Positions 4,287-13,297 of a DNA stretch of 36,357 bases are shown here, piece by piece. Source of the DNA: Rhodospirillales bacterium. Its GTDB lineage: Bacteria > Pseudomonadota > Alphaproteobacteria > CACIAM-22H2. The stretch covers positions 1 to 36,357 of the forward strand of contig JAEUKY010000112.1 in assembly GCA_016794005.1 (NCBI GenBank). The letters are read 5' to 3'. Every line of letters begins with the position of its first letter. Within the stretch, counting starts at the first letter, position 1. A program made the position numbers and the translations under genes. Below the pieces are notes generated by a model. It was not told the DNA's origin. It ran no database searches and saw only the letters and a program-made list of their open reading frames with translations.

Positions 4287-5372
4287 TCAGTCGTGGCCCA
4301 TCTTGTAGGCCGGCATGGCCTGCCCCTTGACCTTGGCAAGCCAAACGCCGTGATGCTCCTTGGCCCAGTTCTCGTCGACCTGGCCGGTGCCCATCGCGTC
4401 GAAGGCCTGCTCCATGCCGAGCGAGCCGATGTAGATGTGCGCGATCACGATGGCCGTCAGCACGAGGCCGACGATCGCGTGGATCACCTGCATCAGCTGC
4501 ATCGAGGAAACGTCGCCGAACTGGAACGGGAACAGCAGCCAGATGCCCGTGAAGCTCAGCGTGGCGCCGCCGACGATGACCGACCAGAAAATCAGCTTCT
4601 GCCCGGCGTTGAACTTGTCGGCCGGCGGGTGCACGCCCTTCGAGAACAGCCCGCCGCCGACCGCCAGCCACTGGAGGTCGAGCTTCGACGGAATGTTGTG
4701 CCGGACCCACATCACGAACATCAGCACGACGCCGAGCATGAAGGCGAACGACAGGTAGTTGTGGGCGTATTTGAGCAGTACCGACAGGCTGGTGAAAGCG
4801 TCGGGACCGAGCAGTGGCAGCAGCAGGTAGCGGCCATAGGTGATGTTGAGCCCCGATATCGCCAGCACGACGAAAGCCCCTGCCGTCATCCAGTGGACAA
4901 ATCTCTCGGTGCCGTTGAAACGCTCGATCGTTCGGCCGGAAAGACCGCTGTCGATCATGATCTTGCCGCGCAGCAGATAGAATGCGATCAGCAGGCAGCA
5001 CATGCCGAGGATCAGCCAGGAGCCCCACACCCGGATCGGGCCCTTGACCGTCTGGCGCCAGTCGCGGCCGGCGGGCTGGATCAGCGTCGCGGCCTTCTGG
5101 TCCGGGATCGAAACCCACCCGCGCGTCGGCGTCAACGCATGAAGAAGTTCTGCGTCGTTCGCCATCAACCCGGCTTCGGGCCGCTGCGACGGGCTCTGAT
5201 AGGCGCCGACGGCCGGCGGCATCAGCCGCGCGCCCTCGGTAGCACTGACCGGCGGCGTCGACGTGGCGTTGACCGGCGCCGGGGGCGTCTGTGCGACCGA
5301 CTGTCCGGCGACGAAAAATCCGAGCGCACATGCGACCAGAGCGAGGGTGCGGATCTTTGTGGCGAGCGTCAT
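4287..5372 (-). CDS. fdhC: Formate dehydrogenase gamma subunit (membrane cytochrome b556)
   Basis: 361 aa. This subunit anchors the complex and passes electrons from the Fe-S subunit through two b hemes to the quinone pool. A signal-like segment (1-28) is followed by a Pro/Ala-rich stretch to about residue 110 and then by about five membrane helices (115-135, 157-178, 200-223, 262-282, 293-315). H160, H204, H298 and H312 in the helices are the likely heme ligands. The protein is about 150 residues longer than E. coli FdoI/FdnI because of the N-terminal extension, which is usual for this alphaproteobacterial type. It is the last gene before the terminator. The symbol follows common usage; fdoI or fdh3C would be equivalent. 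Confidence 0.92.
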   Translation of the reverse strand: MTLATKIRTLALVACALGFFVAGQSVAQTPPAPVNATSTPPVSATEGARLMPPAVGAYQSPSQRPEAGLMANDAELLHALTPTRGWVSIPDQKAATLIQPAGRDWRQTVKGPIRVWGSWLILGMCCLLIAFYLLRGKIMIDSGLSGRTIERFNGTERFVHWMTAGAFVVLAISGLNITYGRYLLLPLLGPDAFTSLSVLLKYAHNYLSFAFMLGVVLMFVMWVRHNIPSKLDLQWLAVGGGLFSKGVHPPADKFNAGQKLIFWSVIVGGATLSFTGIWLLFPFQFGDVSSMQLMQVIHAIVGLVLTAIVIAHIYIGSLGMEQAFDAMGTGQVDENWAKEHHGVWLAKVKGQAMPAYKMGHD

Positions 5373-5693: not shown

Positions 5694-6290
5694 TCAGGTA
5701 CGCGAGCCTTCGCCGTAGGCCGTGGCCCAGCCCCAGGCACCCGAGCCATAGCCGCGCGTGGTGACGCGCTCGCGGTAGATGCCCGCGATCACGTCGCCGT
5801 CGCCGGCGAGCAGAGCCTTGGTCGAACACATCTCGGCACAGAGCGGCAGCTTGCCTTCCGCGATGCGGTTGCGGCCGTACTTGGCGAAGCTGGCGTCGGT
5901 GTTCGAGGGTTCCGGGCCGGCCGCGCAGAAGGTGCACTTGTCCATCTTGCCGCGCGTGCCGAAGTTGCCCGCCTGCGGGTACTGCGGCGCACCGAACGGG
6001 CACGCGTAGAAGCAGTAGCCGCAGCCGATGCACAGATCCTTCGAGTGGAGGACCACGCCTTCGGCCGTCTTGTAGAAACAGTCGACCGGGCAAACGGCCA
6101 TGCACGGCGCGTCCGTGCAGTGCATGCATGCCATCGAGATCGAACGCTCGCCCGGCTTGCCGTCGTTGAGGGTGACGACGCGCCGTCGGTTGATGCCCCA
6201 CGGCACCTCGTGTTCGTTCTTGCAGGCGGTGACGCAGGCGTTGCATTCGATGCAGCGCTCGGCGTCGAGGAGGAACTTCATACGAGCCAT
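5694..6290 (-). CDS. fdhB: Formate dehydrogenase beta subunit (four [4Fe-4S] clusters, FDH3 type)
   Basis: 198 aa. Four cysteine groups typical of DmsB/FdnH-like ferredoxins are visible: CIECNACVTAC, CMHCTDAPCMAVCPVDC, CIGCGYCFYACPFGAP and CTFC with the distal CAEMC. Together they hold four [4Fe-4S] clusters that form a wire from the FdhA active site to the FdhC hemes. Unlike E. coli FdnH/FdoH (about 294 aa) it has no C-terminal membrane helix, which is the normal form in the FDH3 subfamily. The ATG at 6290 has GGGAG eight bases upstream; an alternative ATG lies three codons in. It follows fdhA by 19 bp and has no signal peptide, so it is expected to be exported together with FdhA. Confidence 0.93.
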   Translation of the reverse strand: MARMKFLLDAERCIECNACVTACKNEHEVPWGINRRRVVTLNDGKPGERSISMACMHCTDAPCMAVCPVDCFYKTAEGVVLHSKDLCIGCGYCFYACPFGAPQYPQAGNFGTRGKMDKCTFCAAGPEPSNTDASFAKYGRNRIAEGKLPLCAEMCSTKALLAGDGDVIAGIYRERVTTRGYGSGAWGWATAYGEGSRT

Positions 6291-6309: not shown

Positions 6310-9243
6310 TTAGGCCTTCTCGATGCGGCACAAGGTGGTCTTGGTTTCCTGCATCTGGGTCACAGGATCGTAGCCGTAGGTCGTGACGGTGTTGACCGCC
6401 TCGCCAAGCACGATCGGGTCGGTCCCCTGCGGATAGGACGAACGCATGTCCTTGCCCATCCAATGGCCCGCGAAGTGGAACGGCATCCACGCCACGCCGC
6501 GGCCCACGCGCTCGGTCACCAGCGCCTTGACCTTGATCCGGGCGTTGTTCTCCGGACCGAAGACCCAGACGTCGTCGTTGTTCTTGGCGCCGATACGCGA
6601 GGCATCGGCCGGATTGATCTCGACGAACATCTGCTGCTGGAGTTCCGCGAGCCATTTGTTGGACCGCGTCTCGTCGCCGCCGCCCTCGTACTCGACCAGG
6701 CGTCCCGAGGTGAGGACGATCGGGAACTGCCTGGACACGTCGCGGTCCTGGATCGTCTTGAACAGCGTCGGCACGCGGTGGAGCATCCGGTCCGTATAGG
6801 TCGGATATTTCGCCACGAGCTGGCGGTCGGGCGAGTAGAGCGGTTCGCGATGGACCGGAACAGGGTCCGGGAAGTTCCACACGTTCGCCCGCGCGCGCGC
6901 GTTGCCCTTCGGATCGCAGCCGTGGAGGATCGCCACGCGGATGACGCCGCCCGACGTGTCGAAGTTCCAGGTGACGTTGTCGGCGTTGCCGCCGAACACC
7001 ATCCGCCCGATCTCCTCGATCTCGGTGCGCTCCGCCTCGGTCAGGTCCTTGTCCCAGCCCAGACGCTTGAGCATCCCGAAGCTGAAGGCCGGATAGCCGT
7101 CCTTGATCTCGGAATCGCGCGACGCCACGCCGTCGGCGAGAAGGCTCACACCTTCGCGCTCTGCGCCGAACAGGGCGCGGAAATTGCCGCCGCCCTTCGC
7201 GACCGGGATCGACTGGTCGTAGAGGACGTGCGTGCCGGTATGGCCGTGTTCCGGCTTGCCCCAGCACGGCCAGGGCAGGCCGTAGAACTCGTCCTTGGCG
7301 ATCGCGGCCATACCGTCCTTGGCCGGAATGTCCTTGAGCGCGCGCAGGCTGACGCGGTCGAACGCGTCCTGATTGGCCATGTGCGCCTTGAGACGTTCCG
7401 GACTCTGGCCGGAGTAGCCGGCCGTGAAGCAGGTCCTGTTGATCTCGCGCAGGATGTCCTCGGCGACCGGCTTCTTGCCGTTGACCTTGATGTTCTTGAA
7501 CATCTCGGCCGCGAAGCCGAACTTCTCGGCGAGGAGATACATGATCTCGTAGTCGTTCTTCGATTCGAAGATCGGCTCGACGATCTGATTGCCCCACTGC
7601 AGCGAACGGTTCGACGCCGTGCGGCTGCCGCTCATTTCCAGCGACGTGCAGGCCGGCAGCAGGTAGACGCCGTCCTTGCGCTCGGCCGCCATGACCGGGA
7701 TCTGTACGGGATGCGGATCGATGACGACGAGCGTATCGACCTTCTCCATCGCCTTCTTGCCGTCGGGACCGCGCGTCTGGGTGTTAGCGCCGTGCCCCCA
7801 GAATACCATCGCCTTGAGCGGCTCGGGCTGCCCTTGGATGTTGGTCTTCGCTTCGAGCGCCAGGTCGTGCCAGCGCGACGCCGGCGTACCCGGAAGTTCC
7901 ATGAGGGCCTTCGACTTGAACCGGCCCAGCATGTACTCGTACGGCACGCCCCAGCCGCGGGCGAAGTGGCGCCACGCCTGCTCGGTCAGGCCGTAGTAGT
8001 TCGGCAGGTTCAGCACGTCGAGGCCGAGATCGGTCGCACCCTGCACGTTGCAGTGGCCTCGGAAGATGTTCGTTCCGCCGCCCGACGTGCCGATCGTGCC
8101 GAAATTCATCGCCATGATGCAGTAGGCGCGCACGTTGGCGGAACCGACGGTGTGCTGCGTGCCGCCCATGCACCAGATGATGCTGAACGGCCGGTTGTTC
8201 CACAGCGTCTGCGCCACGCGGCGAAGCTGCGCGCCGGGAACGCCGGTGATGCGCTCGACCTCCGCCGGCGTGTACTTGGCGACTTCCTTCTTGACGTCCT
8301 CCCACCCGTAGACGCGGCGGCGGATGAACTCGTGGTCCGTCCAGCCGTTCTCGATCGCGTGCCAGAGGATGCCCCAGATCAGCGGAATGTCCGTGCCCGG
8401 GCGCAGGCGGACATGTTCGGTCGCATGCGCCGCCGTGCGCGTGAAACGCGGATCGCAGACGATGAACGGCGCCTGATTCTGCTCCTTGCCGCGCAGCACA
8501 TGCAGCATCGAGACGGGATGCGCTTCGGCCGGGTTGCCGCCGATCAGGAACGAGGAACGCGAGTTCTGGATGTCATTATACGAATTCGTCTGCGCGCCGT
8601 AGCCCCACGACTGGGCAACACCCGCCACCGTCGTCGAGTGGCAGATACGCGCCTGATGGTCGACGTTGTTCGTACCCCAGAACGCCGCGAACTTGCGATT
8701 GAGATAGGCCGCCTCGTTCGTGAACTTCGCAGAGCCGAGCCAGTAGACCGAGTCAGGCCCCGCGCTTTCGCGGATCTTGAGAAGGCGATCGCCCACTTCG
8801 TTGACGGCCTGGTCCCAGCTCATCCGGACCCAGCGACCGTTTTCGAGCTTCATCGGATACTTCAGACGGCGGTCGCCGTGCACGAGTTCGCGGATCGCCG
8901 CACCCTTGGCGCAGTGCGCGCCGAGATTGATCGGCGATTCGAAGGTCGGCTCCTGGCCGGTCCACACGCCGTTCTGCACTTCGGCGGTCACCGTGCAACC
9001 AACCGAGCAGTGCGTGCACATGTTCTTGACGATCTTCGTCTCGACGCCCGACTTCGGCGGCCCGAAGGCGCCGGCGGCCTCGACCGTCTTGAGCTTGAGC
9101 GTCGCGGCGGCGGCAACACCGCCCGCCACAAGGCCGGAGCGGCGCAGGAATGCGCGGCGATCCATCGCTCCGCCGGCGGCACCCGCAAGAGCGACCGTCA
9201 GACGCGAGCCGGCGGCCTTGCCGGAGGATTTCTTGGTCAGCAT
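6310..9243 (-). CDS. fdhA: Formate dehydrogenase alpha subunit (Mo/W-bisMGD catalytic subunit, Cys form)
   Basis: 977 aa. It oxidises formate to CO2 at a molybdenum or tungsten bis-MGD centre. After a 26-residue lead comes a twin-arginine signal (MDRRAFLRRSG, R29-R30, then an Ala-rich h-region). The [4Fe-4S] ligands are C76, C79, C83 and C111. The metal ligand is C201, next to the conserved H202 (ARICHSTTVAG); the gene carries a cysteine codon where E. coli FdnG and FdoG have selenocysteine. The C-terminal MopB domain (VLTSGRLVEYEGGGDETRSN, then FVEINPADASRIG) is complete. AGGAGG precedes the start, and the formate_TAT gene ends 12 bp upstream. The folded enzyme should be exported by Tat with FdhB and face the periplasm. 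fdoG/fdh3A are equivalent names. Confidence 0.96.
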   Translation of the reverse strand: MLTKKSSGKAAGSRLTVALAGAAGGAMDRRAFLRRSGLVAGGVAAAATLKLKTVEAAGAFGPPKSGVETKIVKNMCTHCSVGCTVTAEVQNGVWTGQEPTFESPINLGAHCAKGAAIRELVHGDRRLKYPMKLENGRWVRMSWDQAVNEVGDRLLKIRESAGPDSVYWLGSAKFTNEAAYLNRKFAAFWGTNNVDHQARICHSTTVAGVAQSWGYGAQTNSYNDIQNSRSSFLIGGNPAEAHPVSMLHVLRGKEQNQAPFIVCDPRFTRTAAHATEHVRLRPGTDIPLIWGILWHAIENGWTDHEFIRRRVYGWEDVKKEVAKYTPAEVERITGVPGAQLRRVAQTLWNNRPFSIIWCMGGTQHTVGSANVRAYCIMAMNFGTIGTSGGGTNIFRGHCNVQGATDLGLDVLNLPNYYGLTEQAWRHFARGWGVPYEYMLGRFKSKALMELPGTPASRWHDLALEAKTNIQGQPEPLKAMVFWGHGANTQTRGPDGKKAMEKVDTLVVIDPHPVQIPVMAAERKDGVYLLPACTSLEMSGSRTASNRSLQWGNQIVEPIFESKNDYEIMYLLAEKFGFAAEMFKNIKVNGKKPVAEDILREINRTCFTAGYSGQSPERLKAHMANQDAFDRVSLRALKDIPAKDGMAAIAKDEFYGLPWPCWGKPEHGHTGTHVLYDQSIPVAKGGGNFRALFGAEREGVSLLADGVASRDSEIKDGYPAFSFGMLKRLGWDKDLTEAERTEIEEIGRMVFGGNADNVTWNFDTSGGVIRVAILHGCDPKGNARARANVWNFPDPVPVHREPLYSPDRQLVAKYPTYTDRMLHRVPTLFKTIQDRDVSRQFPIVLTSGRLVEYEGGGDETRSNKWLAELQQQMFVEINPADASRIGAKNNDDVWVFGPENNARIKVKALVTERVGRGVAWMPFHFAGHWMGKDMRSSYPQGTDPIVLGEAVNTVTTYGYDPVTQMQETKTTLCRIEKA

Positions 9244-9255
9244 CGTGCGGCCTCC

Positions 9256-9450
9256 TTACTTCGCGAGGGCGTAATAGGTCTTCACGTGCGCCGTCTCGGC
9301 GTAGCCGGCGGACTGCGCGGTCGTCTCGGCCGCAGCCGCAGGCGCGGGGCCGGCGACGCTTCCGGCGCCGGCGGCGGCGACCGCGCCGATGCCGGCGGCC
9401 TTGAAGAACTGGCGGCGCGAAGCCACCTTGATTTCCGGGTTCTGGCTCAT
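9256..9450 (-). CDS. Small twin-arginine peptide of formate dehydrogenase operons (formate_TAT type)
   Basis: 64 aa. A twin-arginine motif (SRRQFFKAAG, R12-R13) is followed by an Ala/Gly-rich h-region to about residue 41 and a short tail ending HVKTYYALAK. This matches the 'formate dehydrogenase region TAT target' family, which occurs almost only next to FDH3-type operons. Its role is not established; an accessory part of the exported complex or a Tat-linked maturation factor are both possible. It has an AGGAAACG ribosome site, starts 14 bp after the chaperone stop and lies 12 bp before fdhA. Confidence 0.88.
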   Translation of the reverse strand: MSQNPEIKVASRRQFFKAAGIGAVAAAGAGSVAGPAPAAAAETTAQSAGYAETAHVKTYYALAK

Positions 9451-9464
9451 CGTTTCCTGCCTCT

Positions 9465-10325
9465 CTATCCCGCGTGTTCGTTGCCGTGCGGCGTTTCGCC
9501 GATGGCGAATGCCGCACGCTCGATCTCGATGAAAATCCGGCCGATCTGCCCGATCGGCATGTAAAGCCGGGCCGCCTTGGCGCTCGCCAGGTCGGCAAAG
9601 AACTTCTCGGCCCAGGGGGCGATGTGCGCGTCGAAGAAGCGCTTCTGCGCATCGAGCGGCGCCGGTGCGCCGAACGCACCGACGATCATGCCTGCCATCA
9701 TCTCGCACAGCGACGCGATGTGGTCTTCCGGCTCCGGCCGGTCGCCCGCGCGTGCGATGCCGAGCTCGGCCATCGCGCCGCGCAGGTTGGCGAGCGGCTT
9801 CTCGTGCAGGAACCCGGTCAGGTAGAACGACGCGTAAGGCTGAAGCTCGCCGCGCGAGAGGCCGATGAACAGGTCGTGGAACTCGTCGCTCGCCTCGCGC
9901 GCCGTCGTCTTGCGCGCCACGGCGGAAAGCGCGCCGATATGCCCGCCGAGTTCGCCGGCATCGCCGCCCATCGCGCCCAGGCGCGCGAGCATTTCCTGCG
10001 AAGGTGCCTCGGCGAGGAGTTCTCCGAGCAGCGCGTACCAAGATGCGCGCAGCGCTTCGTCCGGATCGATATCGAATTCGGGTTCGGCCTTGTCCATCTT
10101 CGATGTGCTGCCTGCAGTCGGATAGACGTCGGGACGAAGTTCGTGGCGCGGCACGCCGGTGGCCCCTTCGATCGAGAGCACGGCCTCGGCGGGAACGCGC
10201 TTGGCGACCTTCAGCCAGTGCCAGACATGGCCCTGAGACTTGCCGATCAGGCGCGCAAGCGCAGACTGACCGCCGGCGACGGCGATCGCGCGCTCGAGTG
10301 CCGAAAGACTATCGACGTCGTTCAT
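9465..10325 (-). CDS. Fusion protein: YdaS/Cro-like HTH domain + TorD-family chaperone
   Basis: 286 aa in one uninterrupted frame. Residues 7-68 form a YdaS/Cro-type helix-turn-helix unit (AGGQSALARLIGKSQGHVWHW, then KRVPAEAVLSIEGATGVPRHELRP), normally found as a free protein of about 70 aa. After a linker (70-88), residues 89-280 form a TorD/DmsD-type all-helical chaperone with the family core DEFHDLFIGLSRGELQPYASFY. TorD proteins bind Tat signals and hold Mo apoenzymes ready for cofactor insertion. As first gene before formate_TAT and fdhA, it is the expected FdhA chaperone. The HTH part implies DNA binding, with a palindrome 13 bp upstream of the start as a possible target. An internal ATG (codon 77) could yield a chaperone-only product. 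The combined function is an inference. Confidence 0.85.
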   Translation of the reverse strand: MNDVDSLSALERAIAVAGGQSALARLIGKSQGHVWHWLKVAKRVPAEAVLSIEGATGVPRHELRPDVYPTAGSTSKMDKAEPEFDIDPDEALRASWYALLGELLAEAPSQEMLARLGAMGGDAGELGGHIGALSAVARKTTAREASDEFHDLFIGLSRGELQPYASFYLTGFLHEKPLANLRGAMAELGIARAGDRPEPEDHIASLCEMMAGMIVGAFGAPAPLDAQKRFFDAHIAPWAEKFFADLASAKAARLYMPIGQIGRIFIEIERAAFAIGETPHGNEHAG

Positions 10326-10337
10326 GCAGCCACCGCT

Positions 10338-10351
10338 ACAAACAGGTTTGT
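10338..10351 (-). promoter_or_regulatory. Palindrome ACAAAC-N2-GTTTGT just upstream of the HTH-TorD start
   Basis: A perfect 6+2+6 inverted repeat lies 12 bp before the start codon at 10325. Its size and symmetry fit a dimeric HTH repressor site, and it overlaps the region where ribosomes would load. No transcription start is known, so it could act on DNA or as a short RNA hairpin. Confidence 0.5.
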
Positions 10352-10479
10352 CGCGAAACCCGCGCCGATTTGGACCTTCAGTTGACCCATGCTTCCCGAG
10401 TGTTGGAGAAGGCGTTCCTTGAGGCGACCTTGGCGTTGATTATCGCCGGTCTTTCTTGTTGCGAATCATTGTCAACACC

Positions 10480-10495
10480 TTCGTTCTACAACGAA
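10480..10495. promoter_or_regulatory. Inverted repeat TTCGTT-N4-AACGAA
   Basis: A perfect 6+4+6 inverted repeat in the leader region between the proposed promoter and the HTH-TorD gene. The dyad with a 4-bp centre resembles common transcription factor sites, but no specific regulator can be named. Confidence 0.35.
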
Positions 10496-10518
10496 ATCGG
10501 CGCCAACAAGATCGTCAG

Positions 10519-10546
10519 TAGATAGTGCGGCACGCCGCACTGTCAA
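10519..10546 (-). promoter_or_regulatory. Likely fdh operon promoter with an operator filling the spacer
   Basis: On the minus strand a perfect -35 box TTGACA (10546-10541) is followed by 16 bp and TATCTA (10524-10519) as a weak -10. The 16-bp spacer is exactly the inverted repeat GTGCGGC-N2-GCCGCAC. Transcription would start near 10512 and give a leader of about 190 nt. The -35 match and the dyad are directly visible; promoter activity and repression are inferred. Confidence 0.5.
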
Positions 10547-10568
10547 CAGCGCCCTGCATGGCAGTGGA

Positions 10569-10587
10569 GATGCTGCGATGCAGCATC
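10569..10587. promoter_or_regulatory. Inverted repeat GATGCTGC-N3-GCAGCATC
   Basis: A perfect 8+3+8 inverted repeat about 23 bp upstream of the proposed -35 box and 67 bp past the DUF3306 stop. It lacks a following T-run, so it is not a clear terminator. It could be an activator site for the fdh promoter or a hairpin at the 3' end of the fdhD-DUF3306 transcript. Confidence 0.4.
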
Positions 10588-10654: not shown

Positions 10655-11170
10655 TCAGGACGCCTCTTTCGGAGGCTCATCCGCAGGCACCACCTCCGCT
10701 TGGGCCGAATCGACCCGCTTCTCGGTTGCTGCGGCCAATCTTGCTTTCTCCGCCGCTTCAGCCCGTTCGATCTCCTCCACTGCCTCGACCATGCCGGAGC
10801 CGACCCGGTAGATCGTGTTCTTCAGACCCTCGGGGAAACACTGGACGGCGTTGAAGTCGATCGAATGGCATTCGGTAATATCAATCGCCGCGAAGTGCGG
10901 ATCGAGCGTCCAGAGCTTGCGCAGCGCCTGAGTGCGCAGGTCGGCCGCCACGTCGCCGCGCATGAACAAGCTGTAGTCCGAGTCACGTGTCAGCGTTTCG
11001 AGCGGCGGAAGCTCGACCGGCTTCGCTTCGGCGGGCAGCTCGGCGGGTTCGTGCGCCTGCGGCAGCGCGTCGACGGCCGGCTCGACGGGCTTTGCGGCGC
11101 GCGCCTCGGCCTTGAGACGCGACCAGCGGCCCGCGAACCCCTCCGCCGGTTTGTCGGTCTCATCCGTCAT
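10655..11170 (-). CDS. DUF3306 protein of formate dehydrogenase loci
   Basis: 171 aa. The N-terminus reads GFAGRWSRLKAEARAAK, then a Pro/Glu-rich stretch, then the DUF3306 core with TRDSDYSLFMRGDVAADLRTQALRKLW and DPHFAAID. There is no signal peptide or membrane helix, so it should be cytosolic. The ATG at 11170 has AAGGA upstream and lies inside the last codons of DUF3305 (11-bp overlap); the longer open frame to 11404 is antisense-like shadow. DUF3305 and DUF3306 proteins regularly co-occur with FDH3 operons, and no biochemical function is known. The tail (about 115-171) is highly charged and low in complexity. Confidence 0.85.
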   Translation of the reverse strand: MTDETDKPAEGFAGRWSRLKAEARAAKPVEPAVDALPQAHEPAELPAEAKPVELPPLETLTRDSDYSLFMRGDVAADLRTQALRKLWTLDPHFAAIDITECHSIDFNAVQCFPEGLKNTIYRVGSGMVEAVEEIERAEAAEKARLAAATEKRVDSAQAEVVPADEPPKEAS

Positions 11171-11726
11171 CGTTTTCCTTCTGCGCGAAGGAGGCGCGGT
11201 AGTCGTTACCCTCGGCCCCCTTGCCGAAGCCCTTGCGCGGATCGATGCGCGTGCGTTTGCGCTTCTTGAAAGTTTCCTCGACGTGAAAGGCCGCGACGTA
11301 GTCCGACAGCCACTGCACGAGTGCCGCCGGCATCGGAACCTTCTCGACCGAGTGCACGCCATCGACCGTGAAGGCTTCGGCTTCGCCCGGGCTTGCGGTG
11401 ACATGGCGAACGACGATGCCGGGTGCGGGAAGTGCCGGATCTCGACGCAGCACCACGTAGACGGAAGGTACCGGTTCCGCGAGGTTCATGCGGTACATGA
11501 CCGTCTCGGCGACGAACAGGGCAAGTTCGAACTGGCCGGCGTACCAGATCGTCGCGTCGCCTTCCGTGCGGACCTTGGTCCACGGCGCAAGACCGGTTGT
11601 TCCGGCGACGATGTCGTGCGGCATCCATTGCTCTTCACCCCACGCCGTCCTGGGCGCGCGCGCGGCCAGCAGCACGCCCACCGGCATGCGTTCGTCGCGC
11701 GAAACCCGGGGCGGCTGGTCATTCAT
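11160..11726 (-). CDS. DUF3305 protein of formate dehydrogenase loci
   Basis: 188 aa. The sequence has the DUF3305 features near the N-terminus ([22 protein letters not shown], then PHDIV), a central LYVAET-like block ([22 protein letters not shown]) and a basic C-terminus ([15 protein letters not shown]). It has no membrane segment. The start overlaps the mobA stop by four bases (ATGA), and its end overlaps the DUF3306 start by 11 bp, so three genes are tightly coupled. Function is unknown; the context with mobA and fdhD suggests maturation or electron delivery for formate dehydrogenase. Confidence 0.85.
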
Positions 11727-12343
11727 CGGGCCGTCTTCTCCAGTTGCCGGCGTGCGGCATCGAGATCGTCGGGGCGGTTGGCGTTGAAAAACGGATCATC
11801 CGGAACGGCCGGATACTCGACCGTCGCGAGCCGGTACCGGGCCGTCCAGCGATCGACCTTGTATATCTTCTCGCGCACCATCGCATCGCGCAATGCCTCG
11901 CGCAGGTCGACGCGCCAGAGCCCGAACACCGGATGCGCCTGCCCGCCGGATGCCGCGCACGCGAGTTGGGCACCTTCGGCGGCGATCGCCGCGTGCATCC
12001 GGGCGACCAGATCGGCCGGGAAGAACGGCGCGTCGGAAGCGAAGCTCGCCACCCACGCTGCCTCCGGCGCGTTCGCTGCCGCCCAATCGAGCCCGGCCAA
12101 CACCCCGGCAAGCGGGCCAGCATAGCCCTCCACCGTATCGGCGACGACAGGCAGGCCGAACGCCGCGAACCGTTCCGGCGGGCCATTGGCGTTGAGAACA
12201 AGGGCGGAAACCTGCGGCCGGGCGCGTGCGACGATATGCGCCAGGAGCGGCCTGCCACCGAGATCGCGAAGACACTTGTCGCCGCCGCCCATGCGCGTCG
12301 ACTGGCCGCCCGCGAGGACGACGCCGGCGGTGTCAGTCCTCAT
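11723..12343 (-). CDS. mobA: Molybdenum cofactor guanylyltransferase MobA
   Basis: 206 aa. MobA joins GMP from GTP to molybdopterin, producing the MGD that formate dehydrogenase needs in bis form. The N-terminal nucleotide-binding signature [16 protein letters not shown] (G12-G13, R17-M18-G19, K23) and the later DAPFFP motif are clear, and the length is normal. The ATG at 12343 is chosen because the protein then starts just before the nucleotide loop; a longer frame to 12391 lies inside fdhD. It overlaps fdhD by 11 bp and DUF3305 by 4 bp. This gives a dedicated cofactor supply inside the formate dehydrogenase locus. Confidence 0.92.
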
Positions 12344-13211
12344 CGCGCGTTCCCTTGCGGCGCGCCTTCGCGTCCTCCTCGGCGACCGCACGCGCGTCGG
12401 CGTCGAACTCGATACGCTCCGCTCCCGCCAGCACGACGAAGCGCGAACCCTTTGCGCGACCGACCAGCGTCAGGCCCGCCTTGCGCGCCAGATCAACGCC
12501 CCATGCCGTGAAGCCGGACCGCGAGACGAGGATCGGAATGCCCATCTGGACGGTCTTTATGACCATCTCCGACGTCAGGCGCCCGGTCGTGTAGAATATC
12601 TTGTCGTGCGCCGTCAGCCCGTGGCGGAACATGTAGCCCGCGATCTTGTCGACCGCGTTGTGGCGGCCGACATCCTCCATGTAGACGAGCGGCCTGTCCT
12701 CCTGGCAGAGCACGCAGCCGTGGATGGCGCCGGCCTCGAGATAGAGCGACGGCGCCATGTTTATCTTGCGCGTGAGCCGATAGAGCCAGGACGTCTTCAA
12801 CCGGGCGTCCTTCGCGAGCGATACGCTGTCGAACTTCTCCATCAGGTCGCCGAAGGCCGTACCCTGAGCGCATCCCGACGTCAGCGTCTTCTTGCGCAGC
12901 TTGTCCTCGAAATCCGTCGTCCGGTCGGTGCGGACCACGACGACGTCGAGCTCGGGGTCGTGTTCGACCGCGACGATCTTCTCGCCCGCACCCAGCATGT
13001 TCTGGTTCAGAAGGTATCCGATCGCCAGATATTCGGGATAGTCGGCGATCGTCATCATCGTGACGATCTCGCGCGCATTGAGGTAGAGCGTCAGCGGCCG
13101 CTCGACGACGACTGCAGTCTCGACATCGGCACCGTTCTGGTCGATCCCGCGCACGCGCTCGACCAGGCGCGGATCTTCCGGATTCGGCTTCAGCAGGAAC
13201 TCGTTGGGCAT
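12333..13211 (-). CDS. fdhD: FdhD sulfurtransferase for formate dehydrogenase (variant cysteine pattern)
   Basis: 292 aa. FdhD passes sulfur from a cysteine desulfurase to the Mo/W centre and is essential for active formate dehydrogenase. Conserved blocks include [26 protein letters not shown] and [12 protein letters not shown]. In E. coli FdhD the reactive pair is a CxxC (C121/C124) in a mobile loop. Here that loop reads [11 protein letters not shown] with a single C114, while a CxxC occurs later (C166-V-L-C169 in HGCVLCQED). I believe this pattern belongs to a recognised FdhD branch, so it need not mean loss of function. The ATG at 13211 is chosen over a GTG seven codons upstream. The divergent Fe-S gene starts 86 bp away. 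Confidence 0.92.
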
Positions 13212-13297
13212 GCGCCGAGAATGGCCCCCCACTTCCCCGCTTTCAAGGCCCCCGAGAAACGCCTTGATCGCCTGCGCCAGCTTTGCAACATAGCCCT

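Follow-up and report, generated by a model that had tools for sequence, protein, structure and literature searches.

A Cro-type DNA-binding domain fused to a TorD-type chaperone: a predicted autoregulator of formate dehydrogenase operons in Alphaproteobacteria

Why should a DNA-binding domain share one polypeptide with the chaperone of a formate dehydrogenase (FDH), at the head of the operon encoding this enzyme? The question is raised by a gene in a stretch of 36,357 nucleotides from a Rhodospirillales bacterium, the whole of which is called the window below. The window is contig C361 of a draft assembly (3.67 Mb, 402 contigs, 85% complete). An initial annotation described a single open frame joining a YdaS/Cro-like helix-turn-helix (HTH) unit to a TorD-like domain, and proposed that the fusion senses unassembled FdhA.

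The fusion gene and its operon

The following features were assigned to the fusion gene and its surroundings.

4287-5372, minus strand: fdhC, formate dehydrogenase gamma subunit (TIGR01583, 149.7 bits, cut-off 115.85)
5694-6290, minus strand: fdhB, FDH3 beta subunit (NF038355, 335 bits, cut-off 240)
6310-9243, minus strand: fdhA, formate dehydrogenase catalytic subunit (profile match)
9256-9453, minus strand: FdhX-like small Tat-signal protein (TIGR02811 formate_TAT, 47.1 bits, just below the cut-off of 48.45)
9465-10325, minus strand: HTH-TorD fusion gene, 286 amino acids (open reading frame from ATG; 76 non-redundant fusion loci)
9486-10067, minus strand: TorD/DmsD-type chaperone domain, residues 87-280 (PF02613; structure matches; PEDH invariant)
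10068-10115, minus strand: linker, residues 71-86, of low confidence and unconserved
10116-10307, minus strand: YdaS/Cro-type HTH, residues 7-70 (Pfam PF15943; AlphaFold2; match to Cro 3bd1)
10203-10235, minus strand: predicted recognition helix, residues 31-41
10655-11110, minus strand: DUF3306 gene, upstream of the promoter region (PF11748)
11160-11726, minus strand: DUF3305 gene (PF11749)
11723-13232, minus strand: MobA-like and FdhD genes (PF12804, PF02634)

The fusion frame runs without stops over all 286 residues. Pfam placed YdaS_toxin PF15943 at residues 10-70 (67.2 bits against a cut-off of 30) and Nitrate_red_del/TorD PF02613 at residues 125-243 (102.6 bits against 22.2), and the description of a full HTH and a full TorD domain in one frame was thus borne out by a domain search on both halves. 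An AlphaFold2 model built from an alignment of 31 fusions had a mean pLDDT of 85.4, with values of 92-98 in blocks of ten for HTH residues 11-60, about 50 for linker residues 71-80, and an all-helical TorD fold with a few weak loops past the linker. In structure comparisons against the PDB using VIA-align, residues 5-70 matched Cro of Xfaso 1 (3bd1) with Z 12.1 and 1.1 A over 63 residues at 41% identity, the second-best match to the HTH having Z 8.4. The expected HTH fold is therefore present. Residues 85-276 matched YcdY (Z 18.9) and DmsD (Z 17.9), and the chaperone half also matched NarJ with bound signal peptide (Z 12.6). Neither structure search gave matches limited to the linker. The EPEDH motif (EPxDH-type) lies at residues 198-202; its PEDH part is invariant across the 31 aligned fusions and the full EPEDH across 8. 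The TorD domain of the fusion is intact with respect to fold and invariant PEDH motif and, by analogy with its relatives, should bind the Tat leader or the apo-form of FdhA.

The initial annotation had named a translation start only at codon 77, downstream of the HTH, as fatal to its proposal. Such a start is unlikely, since the HTH is conserved, dN is well below dS in the fusion gene in comparisons within the genus, and Met77 is unconserved. The Bradyrhizobium homologue in RefSeq, a single coding sequence that includes the HTH, also speaks against it; it is one gene named 'molecular chaperone TorD family protein'.

As initially annotated, the fusion heads an FDH operon, followed after 11 bases by the FdhX-like gene and then by fdhA, fdhB and fdhC. 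An RR motif is readable in FdhX and FdhA, and the fusion gene is located upstream of both Tat-leader proteins. A divergent gene for a 4Fe-4S protein also lies upstream of the fusion. The TorD fold, the PEDH motif and the place in an fdh operon are shared with the TorD/DmsD/NarJ chaperones (PF02613), from which the fusion differs by its N-terminal DNA-binding domain. While fdh-linked TorD proteins are already known, the TorD survey describing them makes no mention of helix-turn-helix domains or fusions (PMC4464133).

Distribution and origin of the fusion

Separate profiles for the HTH half and the TorD half yielded 76 non-redundant fusions from Alphaproteobacteria and 48 TorD-only loci. Genera with the fusion include Bradyrhizobium, Afipia, Nitrobacter, Bosea, Phreatobacter, Mesorhizobium, Chelativorans, Salinarimonas and Elioraea; TorD-only forms occur in Rhodobacteraceae. 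Of 385 alphaproteobacterial genomes sampled, 56 contained a match, and 10 of these were clear fusions. As judged from these searches, the fusion is not peculiar to this stretch and is widespread in Alphaproteobacteria. Azospirillum oryzae, considered as a split pair of HTH and torD genes, was rejected, its 62-aa upstream open reading frame being a hydrophobic signal-like peptide without HTH. Three TorD-only relatives (L010, L011 and L017) have in common a short N-terminal motif, GRWEASL.

Five relatives within the genus share 68-74% identity with the fusion over nearly its full length. Resolved by part, identity within the genus is 83% for the HTH, 73% for TorD and about 20% for the linker. 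By these comparisons the fusion is old and maintained, and the HTH is more strongly constrained than TorD within the genus. The HTH is very probably a working DNA-binding domain.

The HTHs fall into two types. Type 1, found at 10 loci of the source genus and a few others, has four extra residues past the recognition helix; type 2 (66 loci) is without these residues. When the TorD halves were placed on a tree, type 2 formed a single group (SH-aLRT 97) and type 1 fell elsewhere. AU tests rejected neither a single type-1 clade (p 0.58) nor a shared origin of types 1 and 2 (p 0.27).

The nearest free-standing HTHs, of 99 amino acids and from other genomes, are encoded next to a CI-like repressor gene in divergent orientation, with replication-type genes following. 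By gene order this layout is that of a phage immunity region with prophage Cro-like genes. In prophage CP-933P, YdaS acts as a Cro analogue: it binds its own promoter and represses it (PMC8630535). It has also been argued that YdaS is Cro rather than a toxin (PMC5917428). Of the label YdaS/Cro-like, the fold has stood, and its meaning can be narrowed: the most fitting interpretation of the domain is a phage Cro-type repressor, not a toxin or antitoxin. With YdaS/Cro of lambdoid prophages (PF15943; Xfaso 1 Cro 3bd1; CP-933P YdaS) the fusion shares the HTH fold (41-42% identity, 1.0-1.1 A to 3bd1) and, as predicted from sequence, a palindromic operator upstream of its own gene. In contrast to prophage Cro, the HTH is joined to a chaperone and heads the operon of a respiratory enzyme outside any prophage. 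Because the fusion gene sits in an fdh cluster, outside any phage immunity region, its HTH is considered Cro-derived and not a phage Cro.

Palindromes upstream of the fusion genes

Three candidate control elements were located between the fusion gene and the DUF3306 gene.

10338-10351, no strand: predicted operator, palindrome ACAAAC-AG-GTTTGT (ACAAA-N4-TTTGT), ending 12 bp before the ATG
10519-10546, minus strand: possible promoter TTGACA-N16-TATCTA (-35 at 10541-10546, -10 at 10519-10524), read from the sequence
10571-10585, no strand: PhaR/PhbF-type palindrome TGCTGC-N3-GCAGCA (general form TGYTGC-N3-GCARCA), a second cis-element

The initial annotation had expected a DNA target within 10326-10560, and the predicted operator lies there. 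Genome-wide searches used exact patterns only; ACAAA-N4-TTTGT occurred once in the 3.67-Mb draft assembly, at 10338-10351, and in two sister genomes only two copies were present, both upstream of the fusion. The same pattern emerged when inverted repeats upstream of fusion genes were searched blind, with no motif supplied. ACAAA-N4-TTTGT was recovered upstream of 8 of 10 type-1 genes (background maximum 3 in random segments of the same loci), and CATAG-N7-CTATG upstream of 22 of 66 type-2 genes (background maximum 6). Allowing one mismatch, i.e. at least 9 of 10 bases, all 10 type-1 fusions have the former. The type-2 core ATAG-N7-CTAT was found in 56 of the 76 fusion upstream regions, all belonging to type 2 (56/66), against two copies in 733 kb of other sequence from these loci. 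Neither operator palindrome occurred upstream of any of the 48 TorD-only relatives.

Furthermore, the half-site varies with the recognition helix. The eight type-2 loci with Ala as third residue of the QPx motif all have ATAA-N7-TTAT, whereas 56 of the 58 with Ser (rarely Thr or Pro) have ATAG-N7-CTAT, and the reverse pairing was never seen (Fisher p 2e-10, loci being treated as independent though related). On the tree, residue and half-site each changed three times and concordantly, two of these changes lying on well supported branches, and the co-variation comprises only two to three independent events. Together with the difference between types 1 and 2, it argues more strongly than any other observation that the palindromes are read by the HTH itself. 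Since the palindrome follows the HTH type, is missing from TorD-only loci and shifts from ATAG to ATAA with a change from Ser to Ala, the HTH almost certainly binds the upstream region of its own operon, as far as sequence can tell. The toxin name carried by PF15943 might instead suggest a relic or a protein-protein module, the palindrome belonging to another regulator. This is a very remote prospect given a palindrome that is confined to fusion loci and tracks both HTH type and one recognition-helix residue, and an HTH that is the most conserved part of the fusion.

A few further sites were noted. In genome G315, an ACAAA-N4-TTTGT site at a distance of 4.6 kb from the fusion lies within a long hairpin and was left uncounted; a second site in G057 is located between converging genes. 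In large type-2 genomes, genome-wide counts of CATAG-N7-CTATG were near the reversed control; we therefore claim no type-2 regulon beyond the operon. In two genomes of one genus, a second CATAG-N7-CTATG (L176, 2674-2690; L177, 9199-9215) precedes, at a short distance, an operon near the FDH cluster that encodes a TupB-like tungstate-type ABC permease, the TupB model scoring below its own cut-off. Four members of the source genus have a second operator copy about 220 bp further upstream. At L004-L006, two full operators about 225 bp apart, near positions -278 and -53 relative to the HTH start, flank the predicted promoter, an arrangement that could allow DNA looping. Another palindrome, TGGAATAATTCCA, lies just downstream of the operator at 12 Bradyrhizobium-type loci (L064, L065, L069, L070, L082, L084 and others).

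The sign of regulation was approached through promoter positions. A scored search in the window returned the same TTGACA with a neighbouring -10, and the possible promoter at 10519-10546 is regarded as weak because a consensus scan of the upstream stretch gave none at threshold. The operator is located about 165 bp downstream of this only plausible promoter, and would thus operate as a roadblock or else at a promoter that escaped detection. In several lineages its centre is at -17 to -19, between the apparent -35 and -10, as would suit a repressor; several of the -10 calls overlap operator bases. In Bradyrhizobium-type loci, the operator is centred near -43 or -53, two positions that differ by about one helical turn, and precedes a recurrent TTGACC-N17/18-TA(C/G)xCT promoter. 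Such positions are also used by activators, and the sign may therefore differ between lineages. A role of the fusion as activator of the FDH operon, at least in Bradyrhizobium-type lineages, seems improbable nevertheless: in several other lineages the operator falls between -35 and -10, the type-1 operator lies just before the start codon, and the Cro-type ancestry, with the autorepression known for YdaS (PMC8630535), also speaks against activation. In summary, the upstream sequences make it very likely that the fusion autoregulates its own operon, and repression is the likely form.

The PhaR/PhbF-type palindrome points to a second level of control. G[CT]TGC-N3-GCA[AG]C was found in 44 of 76 fusion upstream regions, 1 of 48 TorD-only regions and three times elsewhere in the same loci. 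The source genome holds 13 copies of the motif against one of the reversed control, and a PhaR gene. The site described for the polyhydroxybutyrate regulator PhbF/PhaR is TG[N]TGC[N]3GCAA or CTGCN3GCAG (PMC3206438). From the motif match, the 13 copies and the PhaR gene the operon is also a predicted PhaR target, which suggests control by polyhydroxybutyrate status.

Coupling of chaperone and regulator

We propose that the fusion is a chaperone-repressor, composed of a Cro-type DNA-binding domain, a flexible linker and a TorD-type FDH chaperone. Presumably as a dimer, it would bind the palindromic operator upstream of its own operon (HTH-torD, fdhX, fdhA, fdhB, fdhC) and control it, most likely by repression. 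The same chain would also bind the Tat leader or the apo-form of FdhA. Free chaperone would repress, and chaperone occupied by apo-FdhA would free the operon, which amounts to chaperone titration within one chain. Chaperone titration is familiar from the repressor systems HrcA-GroEL and HspR-DnaK, where free chaperone capacity sets repression. These systems use a general chaperone and a repressor that is a separate protein, whereas the logic proposed here by analogy would operate in one chain and on one substrate. TorD binds the Tat leader and the apo-form of its enzyme (PMC10609526); with the HTH in the same protein, operon output would depend on chaperone load. Since one chain would bind both DNA and apo-FdhA or its leader, the share of chaperone still available for DNA binding would reflect the quantity of enzyme yet to be assembled.

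The fusion, its constraint, the operator and the co-variation with the recognition helix are established at the level of sequence. Sensing of the apo-FdhA load through the TorD domain, as the initial annotation had proposed, is at least an even prospect. All operator evidence would be explained equally well by plain autoregulation, in which the HTH holds operon and chaperone levels constant, TorD is purely a chaperone sending no signal to the HTH, and the fusion does no more than hold the two functions in one gene. The linker, unconserved and modelled with low confidence, gives no sign of a fixed domain interface, which is in keeping with this simpler scheme. We consider it rather unlikely, as repeated coupling of DNA-binding domains to this chaperone suggests a useful connection. 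In another genus, the IS1595 transposase zinc ribbon PF12760 is in frame with an FDH-linked TorD (L035, G109:C264:19227-20432, minus strand; L037, G389:C126:12181-13377, plus strand), the two sharing 62% identity over 398 residues without stops. If these are expressed as read, a DNA-binding domain has apparently been attached to FDH TorD more than once. The argument is weakened insofar as the type-1 and type-2 HTHs may share one origin by the AU test. A Bradyrhizobium-like genome with the HTH-TorD fusion has, at a second FDH copy, also a DUF3306-TorD fusion (L186, 5539-6678, minus strand; G579:C97:560577-561158).

On balance we modestly favour an autoregulator derived from Cro, probably acting as a repressor, that is covalently joined to the FDH chaperone and titrated by apo-FdhA. 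A broader reading is more tentative, its chances being somewhat short of even: a one-component regulator with an enzyme-specific chaperone as sensor, which binds or lets go of the apo-enzyme or its Tat leader and so reports maturation status directly to the enzyme's own operon, and which arose from captured phage Cro domains and, in another genus, again from a transposase zinc ribbon. Our literature search, with most subscription journals outside its scope, found no paper on an HTH-TorD regulator. The fusion proteins are known to databases under TorD family chaperone names, and it is the regulatory reading that appears to be new.

Judging from the genomes compared, in many Alphaproteobacteria this chaperone very probably also regulates how much is made of the enzyme whose assembly it assists. 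To test whether cells sense apo-enzyme build-up, one purified protein, a single 14-bp operator and one signal peptide would suffice. If the proposal is true, the fusion would be a clean case of a phage repressor recruited to host metabolism, with operator and recognition helix changing jointly. It would also tie the assembly of a molybdoenzyme physically and directly to the transcription of its genes within a single polypeptide, and would do so in common genera such as Bradyrhizobium and Bosea.
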